Assembly (NCBI GenBank): GCA_028289585.1
Contig: JANQPI010000026.1
Span: 248,001-312,000 of the forward strand
DNA: 64,000 nt
Origin: Candidatus Zixiibacteriota bacterium
GTDB taxonomy: Bacteria; Zixibacteria; MSB-5A5; GN15; FEB-12
Direction: 5' to 3'
Positions 41,024 to 47,368 of this stretch are shown here, in pieces. The notes under the pieces are model-generated. The model was given only the letters and a program-made list of their open reading frames with translations, ran no database searches and was not told the origin of the DNA. A program made the position numbers and the translations under genes. Within the stretch, counting starts at the first letter, position 1, and the number at the start of each line of letters is the position of its first letter.

Positions 41024-42832
41024 CTACCCGGCCGGTTTCGCACCTACCGTTTCTGCTAACTGGTATCGTTTGTAGACGCGCGCATACGTACCCCCGGCTG
41101 CCATCAGATCCTCGTGTTGCCCAGATTCAACCAGACGACCTGCGTCGAGAACGTGGATATAGTCGGCACGCTCCAGCGTATCGGGTCGATGCGTGATAAC
41201 GACTGCCGTCATGTCAGGCAACACATCGTGCAGACGATCCCAGAGCATCGCCTCCGTCCGCGAATCAAGTGCCGACGTACAGTCATCAAGGACCAGCAGT
41301 TTTGGTTTTCCGGCCAGCGCCCGAGCGAGCGAAAGCCGCTGCTTCTGTCCTCCGGAGATTGACACGCCACGCGTACCGATCTGCGTTTCCAGACCATTCG
41401 GAAATCGGGCAATCTCATCCTTGAGCTGAGCGATGCTGATCGCCCATTCAATGGTGGCATCGGCGATCTCGTCGCGTCCGAGAACGATGTTGTTGCGCAC
41501 AGTGTCGGAGAACAGCACCGGCTCCTGTGGGACGTAGCCGATGATGCTTCGCAACTCTGCCAACGAATACTCGTTCAGGTTGCGTTCATTGAGCCGCACG
41601 ACACCGGATGACGGATCGACCAGACGTGGAATCAGATTGATCAGCCACGTCTTGCCAGCACCGACCGTACCGACAATCGCGACAGTCCGACCCGGATCGA
41701 CTGTAAAGGAAACATTGTCGAGCACTGGTCTCTCAGAGGTACCCAGGTTAAGGGAGACCGCGTCGAATGCTAGCAGTGCACCTCCGGTGGACGGTCGTGT
41801 GGCCGTTCCCGTATCGGCAACCTGGGCTGGAACGGACTCCATCTCCCGAAGTCGATTGATCGAAACACCAGCCTGCCGCGACTTAACCAGGAACTGACCA
41901 ATGTCAAACATCGGCCAGACCAGCCACATGACGTAGTAAAGGAACGACGACAGATCACCGATGGTGAGGTTTCGTGACCCGATCATCACCGCTGCGCCAA
42001 TGAGCACAATGACCAATCCGAATTGCCAGATGTAGCCATACATCGCGTCGACCAACTGCGTGATCTTCACGGCTGAGATTTCAGCACGGCGCCGATCGCG
42101 CGCAGTCTCTTCAAAGCGGTCGCGTGACGATGGTTCGCGATTGTACGATTTCACCACCCGAATCCCGGAGAAGACTGCCTCCATGAGATCCTGGAAACGA
42201 GAGATCCGGGCCTGGAGGGTATCGTATCGTGCGTCAAGACGGGTTCCCGTCTGCATGAAGATGATGACCACAAAGGGAAGCGGTCCGACCGTAATGAGGG
42301 TCAGCCAGGGATCGATTTGCAGCATCATGGCAATGATGAAGACCACGAACATCAACGCTTCGTAGAAGCGAAAGATGCCCGAGCAGGCAAACCAGGAGAG
42401 CTTCTCCGCCACGTCATCAGTCAATCGCGTAATGACATCGCCCGATCGGAACCGGTTAAAGAAGTTCGGTCCCTTGGTTGTGATCTGGTCGAACCCCGTC
42501 TGACGGAAATGGTATTCCAGGCGGCAGTTCATCCAGGCACGGTGCGACTGAACGAATGCATATATGAGGATCGAGACAACTCCGAGCACGAGAAACGCCA
42601 CGCCAAACGTATCGATCAGCGGGAGGCCGAGCGCTTTGCCAGCGTCAACGATCTGGCGACCGATCCAGCCGGTCGGGGTATCGCCAGTTCGTACGGCGTC
42701 GATTGCATAGCCGACCAGGCTCGGCAGGATTGAATGCAAGGCTGCCTGAAGCGGTGTCAACAGCACCAAGACCGCGAGGACGTACTTATACGGTCGGTAA
42801 TACTCCCAGAGCCATCGCCAGTGTTTATACAT
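41024..42832 (-). CDS. ABC exporter half-transporter with degenerate catalytic site (BmrC/TM287-like)
   Basis: A 602-residue half transporter with six transmembrane helices (about 15-320) and a nucleotide-binding domain (about 350-590). Walker A is GTVGAGKT, the signature is SISGGQKQRL, Walker B reads LLVLDDCTSALD, where Asp replaces the catalytic Glu, and the switch His is in ITHRPD. The D-D pair marks the degenerate-site subunit of heterodimeric exporters such as TM287/TM288 and BmrC/BmrD. Its partner gene is upstream and overlaps it by 8 nt (ATGTATAA), so the two are coupled. Likely substrates are drugs or lipids. The ATG at 42832 is used; a longer frame runs into the partner gene. Confidence 0.92.
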   Translation of the reverse strand: MYKHWRWLWEYYRPYKYVLAVLVLLTPLQAALHSILPSLVGYAIDAVRTGDTPTGWIGRQIVDAGKALGLPLIDTFGVAFLVLGVVSILIYAFVQSHRAWMNCRLEYHFRQTGFDQITTKGPNFFNRFRSGDVITRLTDDVAEKLSWFACSGIFRFYEALMFVVFIIAMMLQIDPWLTLITVGPLPFVVIIFMQTGTRLDARYDTLQARISRFQDLMEAVFSGIRVVKSYNREPSSRDRFEETARDRRRAEISAVKITQLVDAMYGYIWQFGLVIVLIGAAVMIGSRNLTIGDLSSFLYYVMWLVWPMFDIGQFLVKSRQAGVSINRLREMESVPAQVADTGTATRPSTGGALLAFDAVSLNLGTSERPVLDNVSFTVDPGRTVAIVGTVGAGKTWLINLIPRLVDPSSGVVRLNERNLNEYSLAELRSIIGYVPQEPVLFSDTVRNNIVLGRDEIADATIEWAISIAQLKDEIARFPNGLETQIGTRGVSISGGQKQRLSLARALAGKPKLLVLDDCTSALDSRTEAMLWDRLHDVLPDMTAVVITHRPDTLERADYIHVLDAGRLVESGQHEDLMAAGGTYARVYKRYQLAETVGAKPAG

Positions 42833-44630
42833 TTGCCAGGTCCCCCTTCCGCGGCTTGAACTGCAGATGGAAGAGTCGTGCGTAGTAGCCATCCTGAAGC
42901 ATGAGATCAACGTGTGAGCCGCGTTCGATGATTTCCCCGTTACGCAGAACGAGGATCTGATCAACATCGAGGATTGTTGACAGACGGTGCGCGATGATCA
43001 ACGACGTGCGACCAGCCATCAGTTTCTTCAGCGCTGCTTGAATCGAACGTTCGGTTTCCGGATCGACCGACGACGTCGCCTCATCGAGGATCAACAGGTC
43101 AGGATTGAACGCGAGGGCTCGGGCAAACGAGAGGAGCTGCCGCTCACCCCGTGAGAAGTTGCTCCCCTTCTCGCTGATTGCTGTCGCGTAACCCTCGGGC
43201 AGCCGTTCGATAAACGAACCGGCCGCCACGGTATCTGCAGCCCGGCGAATCTGTTCCTCGGTGATCGTTTCGCTGCCCAGTGAAATGTTCTCCGCAACCG
43301 ACCCCGGAAAGAGAATGATATCCTGAAGAACCAGAGCCATGTGGTCACGAAGATCCTCGCGCGTCATCGTACGCAGATCAACACCATCGACTGTGATGCG
43401 ACCCTTCTGCGGGTCGTAGAAGCGCAACAGAAGCGAGATTACGGTCGTCTTACCGCCACCAGTTACCCCAACCAAAGCGACACGCTTGCCTCGTGGAATC
43501 TCGAACGTGGCGTTCTTGAGTGCGAAGTTGTCGTCGTCGGTGTAGGAGAACGACACATCTTCGAAGCGGATTGCATCGTTGAGCCCCGGCCATACGACCG
43601 GCTTGATCGGATCAGTCACTCGCGGCTGTGTCCCCAGGAGGCTGTAGATGCGTCGGGCTCCGGCGAGTCCTTTCTGGACATTACCGAGCTGTTCGGAGAC
43701 CCGGAAGATCGGCTCGAACGACTTCATGATCAGAATGAGGAAGAGGACGATCTGTCCCGGGGTCAATCCGAAACGGAAGCCCAGGTAAAGCAGGATCGCG
43801 ATCTTAATGTACTCGAACAGGAAGAGCACATTAAAGAAGAGCGTCGCCGCTATATGGACAAAGCGATCCTCGTTAAACTTAGCCTGATTTGCCTCTTGAA
43901 CGGCTGACCGTGCGTATCGCCCCCGATGGAAAATCTGAATGATCGACATCCCGTGAAGGAATTCGGTCAGCGTACCGGTGAGCGTAGACGTTCGCTTGCG
44001 TACCGCGAGGTAGCGATGTGACGTTACCTTGTGGTACACGTAAACCAGAATCGCCGAGAGCGGCATCGACAGAAACAGAATTCCCGCGAGTGCCGGTGAC
44101 GTCCAGGCCATGATTCCGTAGATACCGATGACCAGGAGCAGATCACCGATCAGGAGCACTACCGTGTTCGTGAACATCAGCCGGAGCGATTCGGAGTCCG
44201 ATTCAACCCGCGCGAGCAGCCGGCCGACGGGATTGCGATCGAACCAGGCAACGTCGAGTTTTAGAATATGGTGGAACAGCTGTCGCTTTAACGTCAGCAT
44301 CAAATCCTGTCCGATAATCTCAAGCTGCACCCGCTGGAGATACGTTGCCACCATCGAGAGCAGCATGAAGAGGAGAATCAGTCCGGCTGCCACCAGCAGG
44401 GCATTCATCGCCCCCGGCGCCAAGGCATTACCAACCAGTTCGGTCAGTGGTCCATCGATCGTCTGTTGTAGGAGAATCGGCCAGTAGAGGGCGAGGCCGG
44501 TTGCGGCGAGCATTAAAAGCAGGCCGACAAAGAGACGACCGCGGTGCTCATTGAGCAGCGGGGTCAGTCGGCGGATCGCCTGGCCGATTGAAATGTCACG
44601 TTCGATTGTATCGTCAACGTCGTGTGTCAC
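42825..44630 (-). CDS. ABC exporter half-transporter, partner with canonical Walker B (BmrD/TM288-like)
   Basis: A 601-residue half transporter: six transmembrane helices (about 30-330) and a nucleotide-binding domain (about 360-590). Walker A is GVTGGGKTT, Walker B LLILDEATSSVD with the canonical Glu, switch His in IAHRLST. The signature is NFSRGERQLL instead of LSGGQ, which faces the partner's non-catalytic site; this complementarity is expected for an asymmetric heterodimer. The GTG at 44630 has AAAGGA 8 nt upstream. The 250-nt leader holds a 24-codon ORF and an intrinsic terminator, suggesting attenuation. The neighbouring TolC fusion gene, divergently transcribed, might supply an outer-membrane exit. 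Confidence 0.93.
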   Translation of the reverse strand: MTHDVDDTIERDISIGQAIRRLTPLLNEHRGRLFVGLLLMLAATGLALYWPILLQQTIDGPLTELVGNALAPGAMNALLVAAGLILLFMLLSMVATYLQRVQLEIIGQDLMLTLKRQLFHHILKLDVAWFDRNPVGRLLARVESDSESLRLMFTNTVVLLIGDLLLVIGIYGIMAWTSPALAGILFLSMPLSAILVYVYHKVTSHRYLAVRKRTSTLTGTLTEFLHGMSIIQIFHRGRYARSAVQEANQAKFNEDRFVHIAATLFFNVLFLFEYIKIAILLYLGFRFGLTPGQIVLFLILIMKSFEPIFRVSEQLGNVQKGLAGARRIYSLLGTQPRVTDPIKPVVWPGLNDAIRFEDVSFSYTDDDNFALKNATFEIPRGKRVALVGVTGGGKTTVISLLLRFYDPQKGRITVDGVDLRTMTREDLRDHMALVLQDIILFPGSVAENISLGSETITEEQIRRAADTVAAGSFIERLPEGYATAISEKGSNFSRGERQLLSFARALAFNPDLLILDEATSSVDPETERSIQAALKKLMAGRTSLIIAHRLSTILDVDQILVLRNGEIIERGSHVDLMLQDGYYARLFHLQFKPRKGDLANV

Positions 44631-44671: not shown

Positions 44672-44709
44672 TAAACGAAAACAGCCGCTCGGTTCGGTGA
44701 ACGAGCGGC
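44672..44709 (-). terminator. Leader terminator (candidate attenuator) of the ABC exporter operon
   Basis: On the minus strand GCCGCTCG-TTC pairs with GAA-C-CGAGCGGC (44684-44709) with loop ACC and one bulge, followed by TGTTTTCGTTT. It lies between the leader ORF and the first exporter gene, 54 nt before its start. Confidence 0.75.
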
Positions 44710-44740
44710 CGGGGATAGACAAACCTGCGATGCCTCTATA

Positions 44741-44815
44741 CTAGGCGGGGGAAAGCCTCCGGCAGCTCATCCAGACTCGAGCCAGCCCGATCGGGGATGC
44801 GGGGTGGTTGATCAT
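44741..44815 (-). CDS. Putative 24-residue leader peptide of the ABC exporter operon
   Basis: An ATG at 44815 opens a 24-codon frame ending in TAG at 44741. The peptide begins MINHPASP and ends RRLSPA. GAGGAGG (plus-strand 44827-44833) lies 11 nt upstream, a strong though slightly distant Shine-Dalgarno. The bases of codons 16-20 (44768-44757) can pair with the 5' arm of the downstream terminator (44703-44714): 10 Watson-Crick pairs with two mismatches. So an antiterminator could form when a ribosome stalls early in the frame, while a ribosome that completes it would block the pairing. In Bacillus subtilis the related bmrCD exporter operon is known to have such a leader, BmrB. The peptide sequence has no similarity that I can claim. 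Confidence 0.55.
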   Translation of the reverse strand: MINHPASPIGLARVWMSCRRLSPA

Positions 44816-44885
44816 GACGGGAACTGCCTCCTCGACGATTCAGTGATCGTCAACTAGCGGTGAATACTTCCTTACCAGCGAGGCG

Positions 44886-44914
44886 AGGGTAGGGCAAAGC
44901 GCACGAAACGTCAA
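44886..44914 (-). promoter_or_regulatory. Candidate promoter for the leader-ORF/ABC exporter transcript
   Basis: On the minus strand TTGACG (44909-44914), 17 nt, TACCCT (44886-44891). This would give a leader of about 250 nt that includes the 24-codon ORF and terminator. Confidence 0.45.
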
Positions 44915-44983: not shown

Positions 44984-45012
44984 TTGGCCTAACCCGTGCA
45001 CCCATCTATACT
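44984..45012 (+). promoter_or_regulatory. Leaderless-type promoter of the substrate-binding/TolC fusion gene
   Basis: TTGGCC (44984-44989), 17-nt spacer, TATACT (45007-45012), then 7 nt to the ATG at 45020. No Shine-Dalgarno is present. Confidence 0.6.
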
Positions 45013-45019
45013 TACCGCC

Positions 45020-47368
45020 ATGCAACGAAGATTCGGTGTGCTCATTCTTAGTCTGTTGGCTTTCTCCGGACCGGTGACGGCCGACAAGTCACTGGCGACC
45101 GACGCGTCGGTTCGGTTAGCGTTTTATGAGGCGGGGCCGTATTTCACCAACTCGATTCTCCGTCAGGCGATTCGTGATCAGATTGACGCGCTGGCGCCGA
45201 ATCCGAAGCGATTTGTCATCGATGCGGAGTCGTACTACAGTGCCGAGTGGGATCGACAAACGTCGCAACGCATCGCGACGACGATCTCCAACCGAACCGA
45301 AGATCCGATCGACATCGTGGTCACACTCGGTCCGTGGGGTGTCGAGGATCTTCTGGCCGCCGGGTACTCTGGAGCAATTGTCGCCGTTGATCGGATCGGA
45401 CCGATCGCCGAGGGACTTGCGGATAATCGCGGACAGCCGATCGCGTCTAACCTGACGCTCACCGCTCGTCCGGAGAAGATCAGCATCGACCTGTCGTCGA
45501 TTGCATCGCTTACAGACAAGAAACGCATCGGCGTAGTCGCGTTCCCCAGTGGGGAGAATCGAGAGAACCTCGCCTCCGCTATCGAGCGGTTGGGGTGGAC
45601 AGTTTGGATCGGTGAGGGAACCGATAACCGCGGGACATATGCGCCGATCGTGGCGATTGAGTCGATCCTCGATTCGGTCGACGTAATCTATGCGCCAAAT
45701 CTCTGGGGGATGCGCCTGGAGGCGGTTCGTGACATCGCCCGCCGTCTCGCCGAAGCAGGAATGCTGTTCTTTGTCGGCGACGGACGGTTTGCCGTTGAGC
45801 GGGGAGCACTGGCGAGTGCGACACGTCAGACGATCTTCGGGAGTGCGGCAACGGTGGCGTGGAAGATTGGTCGGATCGCCGATGGTATCGTTCCCGCTGA
45901 TCTCCCGACAATGTTTCGGGATCATTACGGCTGGACGATCAACGCCGAAACACAGTTTCGGCTCGGGCTCGCCATACCGACTGCAATTCTGTCCGAGGCT
46001 GAGGTGATTGGAACGCCCGCACCTACTGCCGACATTGAGACGCTGACTGATTTGGTTCAGGCAGCGGAGGCAACGTCCGGTGATGTACTGGCTGCGCGCG
46101 AGCGCGTAGCGGCGGCGCGAGCGATTACCGATGCGATTAGCGCCGGCCGCCGGCCGCAATTGACCGGATTCGGTTCAGTTGGGTACATCGACGATAACGC
46201 GGTTGACAATTCTGGTGGCCGGTTTGAAAACTCCCGCTGGGATCTCGGGGTACGTCTCGCTCAACTTCTGTATGCCCCTGAAATCACGCGCGCGATTGCC
46301 CGGGCCGAAAGCGGTCGTGATCGCCAGGCGGCCGCTGAGGAACGTTTGCGCGTAACACTACGTCAGGCAATTGCAGCGGCATATCAGGCGATCTTCGTGG
46401 CACGCGAGCGGGCAGTTATTGCGACGGGACACCGACTCGTGATTGAGCGACAATTTGCGGCAGCCAACGGGCGGTATCGTGTAGCACGCGACAATCCGGT
46501 TCAACTGTTGTTCTGGCGGCAGCAGTTCGATCGGGCACTGATTGCAGCCGCACAGGCACGGCAGACCGCACTCGATGCAGAGTTCGTCCTTAAGGCTTTG
46601 GTCGGCCGCCCACCCGATTATCCACTCGCTCTTGATCCGACACCCTATGCCGCCATCGGCGTTGCCGGTGCACTTGGCCAATTGAGCGTCGTGGCACCGA
46701 CCGATTCCGCCGCCAACGCGGTCGCGACGTGGTTGGCGCAGCAAGCGGTCGATCGCTCGCCCGACGTTATCGAATCGGATTTCTATCGCGACTCCCTTGC
46801 TTTTGCCGCGCAAACGGCCCGGCGGTGGTGGCGGCCGAAAATCGGATTGCAGGCAGAGTTTGCGCTGACCGATTCGCTCGCTGAGCGTCCGGGGTTCGAT
46901 CCGCAACTGCCGACCTGGTGGGTGGGGGCGACCGTTGAACTACCGCTCTGGTTGGGGGGGAGTCGCTCACGCCGAGCGAAGGCAATCGGCCTGCAGCAGT
47001 CGGCGGTCGAGTTCGAGCGAGATGCGCTCCGCGCGCGCGTGGCGGGGGAGGTGTCGGTGGCGTTTAACGCTATCGTCGCCCGGTTGAATGCGTTGCCGCG
47101 CTATAATCGGCAGTTACAGGCGTCAGTGACGATGATCGAGGAAGGCGTCCTGGAATACGAGCGCGGAACACTGACGCTGGCCGACCTGGTCGCGATCCTC
47201 GAATCGGCGCGAGCCGTGCGTTTAGAGGAGCTGGCGTTACGCGATGAGATCCACGCCGCTGCGAATGATCTGACGTATTATCTCGCTGCGGATTGGGCGA
47301 CCGAGGTTGCCGCAACGCCGCTGACTGAAATTGTCGATCAGTTGCGCGCGTGGAGGTCGAACCGGTAG
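45020..47368 (+). CDS. Periplasmic binding-protein-like domain fused to TolC-type outer-membrane efflux protein
   Basis: A 782-residue exported protein. The signal peptide is MQRRFGVLILSLLAFSGPVTA. Residues about 25-335 look like the ABC_sub_bind family of periplasmic binding proteins: IDIVVTLGPWGVEDLLAAGYSGAIVAVDR, KRIGVVAFPSGENRENLASAIERLGW, VDVIYAPNLWGMRLEAVRDIARRLAEAGMLFFVGDG and INAETQFRLGLAIPTAILSEAEVIG. Residues about 345-770 form a TolC-like barrel/tunnel domain with coiled-coil segments (RRPQLTGFGSVGYIDDNAVD, LLYAPEITRAIARAES, ALDAEFVLKALVGR, VGATVELPLWLGG, LEYERGTLTLADLVAILES). Thus a binding module is joined to an outer-membrane exit duct. It is divergent from the ABC exporter, so a joint role is possible. 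Not a fusion I recall as common. Confidence 0.8.
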   Translation: MQRRFGVLILSLLAFSGPVTADKSLATDASVRLAFYEAGPYFTNSILRQAIRDQIDALAPNPKRFVIDAESYYSAEWDRQTSQRIATTISNRTEDPIDIVVTLGPWGVEDLLAAGYSGAIVAVDRIGPIAEGLADNRGQPIASNLTLTARPEKISIDLSSIASLTDKKRIGVVAFPSGENRENLASAIERLGWTVWIGEGTDNRGTYAPIVAIESILDSVDVIYAPNLWGMRLEAVRDIARRLAEAGMLFFVGDGRFAVERGALASATRQTIFGSAATVAWKIGRIADGIVPADLPTMFRDHYGWTINAETQFRLGLAIPTAILSEAEVIGTPAPTADIETLTDLVQAAEATSGDVLAARERVAAARAITDAISAGRRPQLTGFGSVGYIDDNAVDNSGGRFENSRWDLGVRLAQLLYAPEITRAIARAESGRDRQAAAEERLRVTLRQAIAAAYQAIFVARERAVIATGHRLVIERQFAAANGRYRVARDNPVQLLFWRQQFDRALIAAAQARQTALDAEFVLKALVGRPPDYPLALDPTPYAAIGVAGALGQLSVVAPTDSAANAVATWLAQQAVDRSPDVIESDFYRDSLAFAAQTARRWWRPKIGLQAEFALTDSLAERPGFDPQLPTWWVGATVELPLWLGGSRSRRAKAIGLQQSAVEFERDALRARVAGEVSVAFNAIVARLNALPRYNRQLQASVTMIEEGVLEYERGTLTLADLVAILESARAVRLEELALRDEIHAAANDLTYYLAADWATEVAATPLTEIVDQLRAWRSNR

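Follow-up and report, generated by a model that had tools for sequence, protein, structure and literature searches.

The exporter genes and their leader

The window (64,000 nucleotides of a Candidatus Zixiibacteriota contig, the whole of the stretch analysed) contains on its minus strand two genes for the subunits of an ABC exporter. The first (42825..44630) encodes a BmrD/TM288/TmrA-like subunit with the Walker B sequence LILDEAT and a degenerate signature, SRGER, and the second (41024..42832) a BmrC/TM287/TmrB-like subunit with the signature SGGQK and the Walker B sequence LVLDDCT, which lacks the catalytic Glu; the start of the second gene is likely the ATG at 42832, so that the two genes overlap. 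Sequence identity between the two proteins is 26%, and solved bacterial relatives of both include the heterodimers TmrAB, BmrCD (YheI/YheH) and TM287/288. On the basis of these motifs and matches the pair is predicted to contain one degenerate and one catalytic site and to be an asymmetric exporter of the BmrCD/TmrAB/TM287-288 type, putatively for multiple drugs, in agreement with an earlier note on this DNA that had placed an asymmetric ABC exporter here. A divergent gene on the plus strand (44996-47368) encodes a protein with a C-terminal outer-membrane efflux part (TolC-like, OEP) and an N-terminal portion of ∼340 residues without family match, an unusual fusion adjoining the exporter.

Between the divergent gene and the exporter lies a leader in which the promoter, the 24-codon reading frame with GAGGAGG in front of it and the 11-bp terminator with its U-tract, all listed in the earlier note, are found by direct reading of the sequence exactly where they had been placed, each on the minus strand. 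The promoter-like sequence (44886..44914) consists of TTGACG at 44914-44909, a 17 nt spacer and a weak -10 box, TACCCT, at 44891-44886. It does not appear in the output of a standard promoter scan; its position, approximately -70 from the leader ATG, is that of the TTGACA/TATAAT-type sites in relatives, which mostly end 68-89 nt 5' of the leader start and score at least 9/12 in 40 of 47 leaders. No enrichment of promoter-like sites was obtained when the stretch between terminator and gene was scanned in the relatives' leaders and, taken with the sites upstream of the leader, this disfavours transcripts that start downstream of 44684, the contrary case raised in the earlier note.

The leader reading frame, MINHPASPIGLARVWMSCRRLSPA followed by a stop codon (44741..44815), is preceded by the Shine-Dalgarno sequence GAGGAGG (44827..44833). 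The intrinsic terminator hairpin (44684..44709) has 11 bp, one bulge and a stability of -15.7 kcal/mol; it reads GCCGCTCGTTC-ACC-GAA(C)CGAGCGGC from 44709 to 44684, followed by TGTTTTCGTTT, with the U-tract TGTTTTCGTTTA occupying 44672..44683, and it begins 31 nt past the leader stop, that is, outside of the leader coding region. In what follows regions 1 to 4 denote, in order of transcription, the segments that can pair with one another. Region 2 (44757..44772) lies within the reading frame and region 3 (44703..44714) beyond it, and 44768-44757 (GAGCTGCCGGAG) can pair with 44714-44703 (CCCCGGCCGCTC) at 10 of 12 positions, precisely as had been claimed, to give an antiterminator. The 44709-44703 part of region 3 also belongs to the 5' arm of the terminator, in which it pairs with region 4. 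A third pairing, absent from the earlier note, joins region 1 (GGCAGTTCCC, 44819..44828) to region 2 through 44828-44819 and 44772-44761, with a duplex energy of -15.7 kcal/mol, so that region 2 alternates between regions 1 and 3. Region 1, which would act as an anti-antiterminator, sits in the 5'UTR at the leader Shine-Dalgarno sequence and would therefore be covered by an initiating or early-stalled ribosome. Three features expected of a leader-peptide attenuator are present, namely a short ORF with a Shine-Dalgarno sequence upstream of the terminator, in the window as in relatives, an intrinsic terminator before the first gene and an antiterminator that overlaps the ORF and is mutually exclusive with the terminator.

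Conservation of the helices and of the leader reading frame

Each of 60 related genomes contains a match to the first exporter protein, and in most of them the best match is ∼50-63% identical. Exporter orthologues of the same family and order, at 50-63% identity, share the leader layout: a TTGACA/TATAAT-type promoter comes first, then an ORF of 20-31 codons that holds region 2 in its last part, then a terminator. Region 3, the 5' arm of this terminator, has a choice of two partners, region 2 or the 3' arm (region 4). In most relatives regions 2 and 3 read CGCGGCGGG and CCCGCCGCG, and region 4 is CGGCGGG followed by a U-tract. The window copy, with GAGCTGCC, GGCCGCTC and GAGCGGC in regions 2, 3 and 4, is an outlier in sequence in which the pairings are retained.

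In an alignment of 48 leaders 89.5% of the cells in the antiterminator (2:3) are paired, with 38 two-sided changes as against 12.8 in shuffles (0/500), and slid versions of this helix do not come near the real pairing. The corresponding values for the terminator (3:4) are 87.5% and 23 versus 8.4 (0/500), the columns of region 3 covarying with its two partners, regions 2 and 4. We rely on these counts rather than on an alignment of all matches to the covariance model described below, which contains weak antisense matches. RNAalifold applied to the 48 leaders returned the terminator alone because a single structure cannot hold both helices, and pairs were counted on named structures in its place.

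An alignment-free comparison, in which the duplex energy between a leader's own regions is set against that obtained with regions swapped in from other leaders (one leader per genus, n=49), gives -14.1 for native versus -11.8 for swapped 1:2 pairs, -18.6 versus -15.4 for 2:3 and -16.9 versus -14.5 for 3:4, each 0/10000; the test favours 2:3, as the positions of regions 2 and 3 had been chosen for the complementarity between them, a selection that does not enter into 1:2. An earlier set of leaders gave 0/5000 for 1:2, and the control pairings 1:3, 2:4, 1:4 and ORF-body:2 were null among the 49. Conservation of the alternative pairing in relatives, to which the earlier note had tied its proposal, is thus borne out by both covariation and native-versus-swapped energies.

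Two smaller hairpins are not claimed as defined parts of the leader. One, right after region 2 (columns 24-35), is 57% paired with weak support (24/500), and the other, at the stop codon, has moderate covariation support. A palindrome, TGTGA-N6-TCACA, lies over the leader stop between regions 2 and 3 and is exact in 19 of 78 leaders (L025, L023 and L014, for example); it could fold into a hairpin or serve as a DNA site of the CRP/FNR kind. In one genus, represented by L041 (G026 contig 101), the leader ORF ends before region 2 is reached and a weaker terminator follows, so that by its sequence this leader appears to be a degenerate or altered attenuator.

The reading frame, whose conservation had been set in advance as a test of the proposal, is likewise maintained. 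Its geometry is found in 74 of 78 leaders, compared with 9.2 expected when the interior is shuffled and the Shine-Dalgarno sequence, start and region 2 are kept, these leaders having been collected by RNA similarity and the ORF looked for only afterwards. Starts lie at a median of 49 nt 5' of region 2 and stops 27 nt past it. Among related leaders of equal length substitutions before region 2 number 100, 102 and 118 at codon positions 1, 2 and 3, counts that are not independent since leader pairs share members; the lack of a codon-position bias indicates that the amino acids there are not kept. The N-terminal part of the peptide is not conserved, and the C-terminal RGG overlaps region 2 and is inseparable from the RNA signal. 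As judged from these comparisons, and for the part upstream of region 2 at least, it is translation, not the peptide, that appears to be conserved.

The proposed switch and its alternatives

The leader carries a complete 1:2 / 2:3 / 3:4 attenuator, observed in its pairings, their covariation, the ORF geometry, the promoter position and the association with the exporter; that the switch operates in cells, with translation-inhibiting compounds as the natural signal, we infer. In the folding models, which assume equilibrium, the ribosome is represented by masking its footprint. Without a ribosome 1:2 and 3:4 coexist in the window leader, and a footprint at codon 3 lowers the terminator pairs from 10.9 to 0.2, with 10.7 antiterminator pairs, a switch that is found in 0 of 400 dinucleotide shuffles of the leader in which the terminator was kept. 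In many relatives placing a ribosome at codon 3 is not enough for the antiterminator to outcompete the terminator at equilibrium (mean pairs 2.5 for 2:3 and 7.1 for 3:4), so that there the switch must be kinetic. Across the family RNA that ends at region 3 readily forms the antiterminator, and once region 4 exists the terminator often wins at equilibrium; transcription timing therefore matters. For RNA ending at region 3 without a ribosome, 2:3 is preferred over 1:2 at equilibrium (8.3 versus 1.3 pairs), and 1:2 would matter only if it formed first and were slow to open.

We consider it very probable that the locus is a ribosome-mediated transcription attenuator of the BmrB kind, which controls a heterodimeric exporter and is induced by early stalling of ribosomes. 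RNA polymerase would start at ∼44880 and produce a leader RNA carrying the 24-codon ORF, in which three helices compete: 1:2, between the 5'UTR/Shine-Dalgarno sequence and the last part of the ORF, the antiterminator 2:3 and the terminator 3:4. If the leader is not translated, 1:2 would form and leave region 3 free for region 4, and transcription would stop at ∼44680. During free translation the ribosome would cover region 2 and reach the stop codon, blocking 2:3, so that 3:4 forms and termination again results. When the ribosome is held at the start or within the first codons, a translation inhibitor being one possible cause, it would sit on region 1 and leave region 2 free to pair with region 3 once it is made; no terminator would then form and the exporter genes would be transcribed. 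The most likely role of the leader and its competing hairpins is hence to turn the exporter on when ribosomes stall, as they would with antibiotics.

Were the leader peptide instead a drug- or metabolite-specific arrest peptide of the ErmCL, MsrDL or TnaC type, in which a particular nascent chain arrests translation in the presence of one compound, one might expect the bias that is seen toward a single frame in region 2, read as R/C-G-G in 62 of 66 leaders with the core motif, and the steady placement of the stop codon 24-27 nt after region 2, which makes the last ten residues alike (RGGxGVS-like). The frame bias may, however, be inherited, four leaders read region 2 as A-A-G and yet keep the RNA pairing, and no codon-position bias is seen for the residues that precede region 2. 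Moreover, a ribosome arrested close to the stop codon would prevent 2:3 from forming and promote termination, which is the opposite of induction, and we regard an arrest peptide as improbable. An amino-acid attenuator of the trp type, sensing shortage of one aminoacyl-tRNA, would have the same layout, as illustrated by the trp and phe/DAHP leaders of the same class considered below, but none of 49 leaders has the same residue three or more times in a row before region 2, no hungry codon is shared, and the downstream gene is an exporter rather than a biosynthetic gene. This explanation is extremely unlikely.

A ligand-binding riboswitch or a protein-bound attenuator could draw on the palindrome, a possible CRP/FNR-type site, although it is missing from most leaders, the hairpin there has no more than moderate covariation support, no Rfam family matches, and a riboswitch would leave the conserved ORF geometry unexplained; we hold such a device to be very unlikely, if not quite to the degree of the trp-type attenuator. 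That the element is a plain terminator which sets a low constant expression, the alternative pairing being a coincidence, is compatible with a terminator and U-tract in front of the gene; it is almost certainly wrong given compensatory changes across regions 1, 2, 3 and 4 together.

The ribosome-mediated attenuator that we favour would be functionally similar to BmrB of Bacillus subtilis, whose leader must be translated and which is induced by lincomycin, erythromycin and chloramphenicol (PMC4191407). As in B. subtilis (PMC4191407), a leader ORF, a terminator, an antiterminator and an anti-antiterminator precede a heterodimeric, here putatively multidrug, ABC exporter, and the exporters are of the same class, YheI/YheH being among the solved relatives of the window pair. 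BmrB, however, has 53 codons and a terminator inside the ORF (PMC4191407), whereas here there are 20-31 codons and the terminator mostly lies 20-30 nt after the stop; because the terminator is outside of the leader coding region the present leader is not assigned as a BmrB homologue, and its signal is a proposed one. The BmrB anti-antiterminator is predicted only, with a role called unclear (PMC4191407), while 1:2 is here backed by covariation. The two share logic only and no common RNA family was found, which, with a MAG of candidate division GN15 as the nearest named genome, fits the earlier suggestion of an independent example in a distant lineage. Rfam gave no match in the window leader at E up to 10 and none at gathering scores in the leaders of 8 relatives, and a literature search for Zixibacteria and riboswitch found no paper.

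In the literature compared, Bacillus subtilis is where control of a multidrug ABC exporter by a leader peptide has been demonstrated. The present leader would add a second case, from an uncultured candidate phylum, that is unrelated to the first, conserved much more widely and backed by covariation in its anti-antiterminator; it would suggest that drug-responsive exporter attenuators have evolved repeatedly, would provide RNA catalogues with a new family, and predicts that environmental bacteria of this lineage meet translation inhibitors often enough to retain the switch. The patAB attenuator of Streptococcus pneumoniae similarly places predicted hairpins of all three kinds, terminator, antiterminator and anti-antiterminator, in front of an ABC exporter encoded by two genes but, in the parts of that report consulted, no leader peptide or ribosome dependence is reported (PMC4319486). 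The E. coli-type trp attenuator has the same 1:2 / 2:3 / 3:4 logic and a leader ORF; it differs in that the present leaders have no codons for one amino acid and place region 1 in the 5'UTR at the Shine-Dalgarno sequence rather than in the ORF. Finally, the toiL uORF of E. coli topAI resembles the proposed switch in being a leader ORF by which several classes of ribosome-targeting antibiotics are sensed, with stalling at different codons, but its targets are translation and Rho-dependent termination rather than an intrinsic terminator (PMC12121999).

Distribution of the leader and related attenuators

A covariance model of the leader matches 96 of 132 genomes of the phylum, from many families, at E ≤0.01, where matches near the threshold will include chance ones. 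The arrangement is conserved throughout a whole class of related bacteria. The window copy, though a training sequence, is unreported at E 0.01 in the whole-genome scan and has an E of 1e-5 in a scan of the locus. Twelve matches from other genomes were inspected, 11 of them strong, and both exporter genes lie directly downstream; the inspected strong matches from other families precede the same gene pair.

Weaker matches include a trp leader and a Tyr/Phe-rich leader. The former, MNFSVSHNNIPGSARNWWWWSIPDTGSG (L091, G040 contig 126, minus strand, ∼3903-3735), has four Trp codons and a terminator, followed by an anthranilate synthase gene, and by its sequence is taken to be a classic Trp attenuator in an uncultured lineage. 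The latter, MNRFATTADVYYYQYFGLFTQPRAGVNPPH (L093, G131 contig 8, minus strand, ∼2385-2235), contains YYYQYFGLF and an attenuator, and the gene after it encodes a fused chorismate mutase / prephenate dehydratase / DAHP synthase. These two leaders serve as positive controls, suggesting that the lineage uses leader-peptide attenuation of the same layout; within this class the trp and phe/DAHP leaders have hungry codons and the exporter leaders lack them. A general sensor of translation stress may conceivably have been derived within the lineage from an amino-acid attenuator, a free-running ORF replacing the hungry codons and the 1:2/2:3/3:4 pairing scheme staying that of the trp and phe/DAHP leaders, although we think this rather unlikely; if true, any early ribosome stall would open a drug response built in across the class.

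Two genomes have a second copy of the leader. In G027 a strong copy (L096, contig 1, near 818225) is followed by a gene that matches exporter residues 3-231 only, and the full exporter operon is present elsewhere in that genome. In G025 (L090, contig 233) the second copy precedes a relative of an exporter subunit, 44% identical, that is cut by the contig end.
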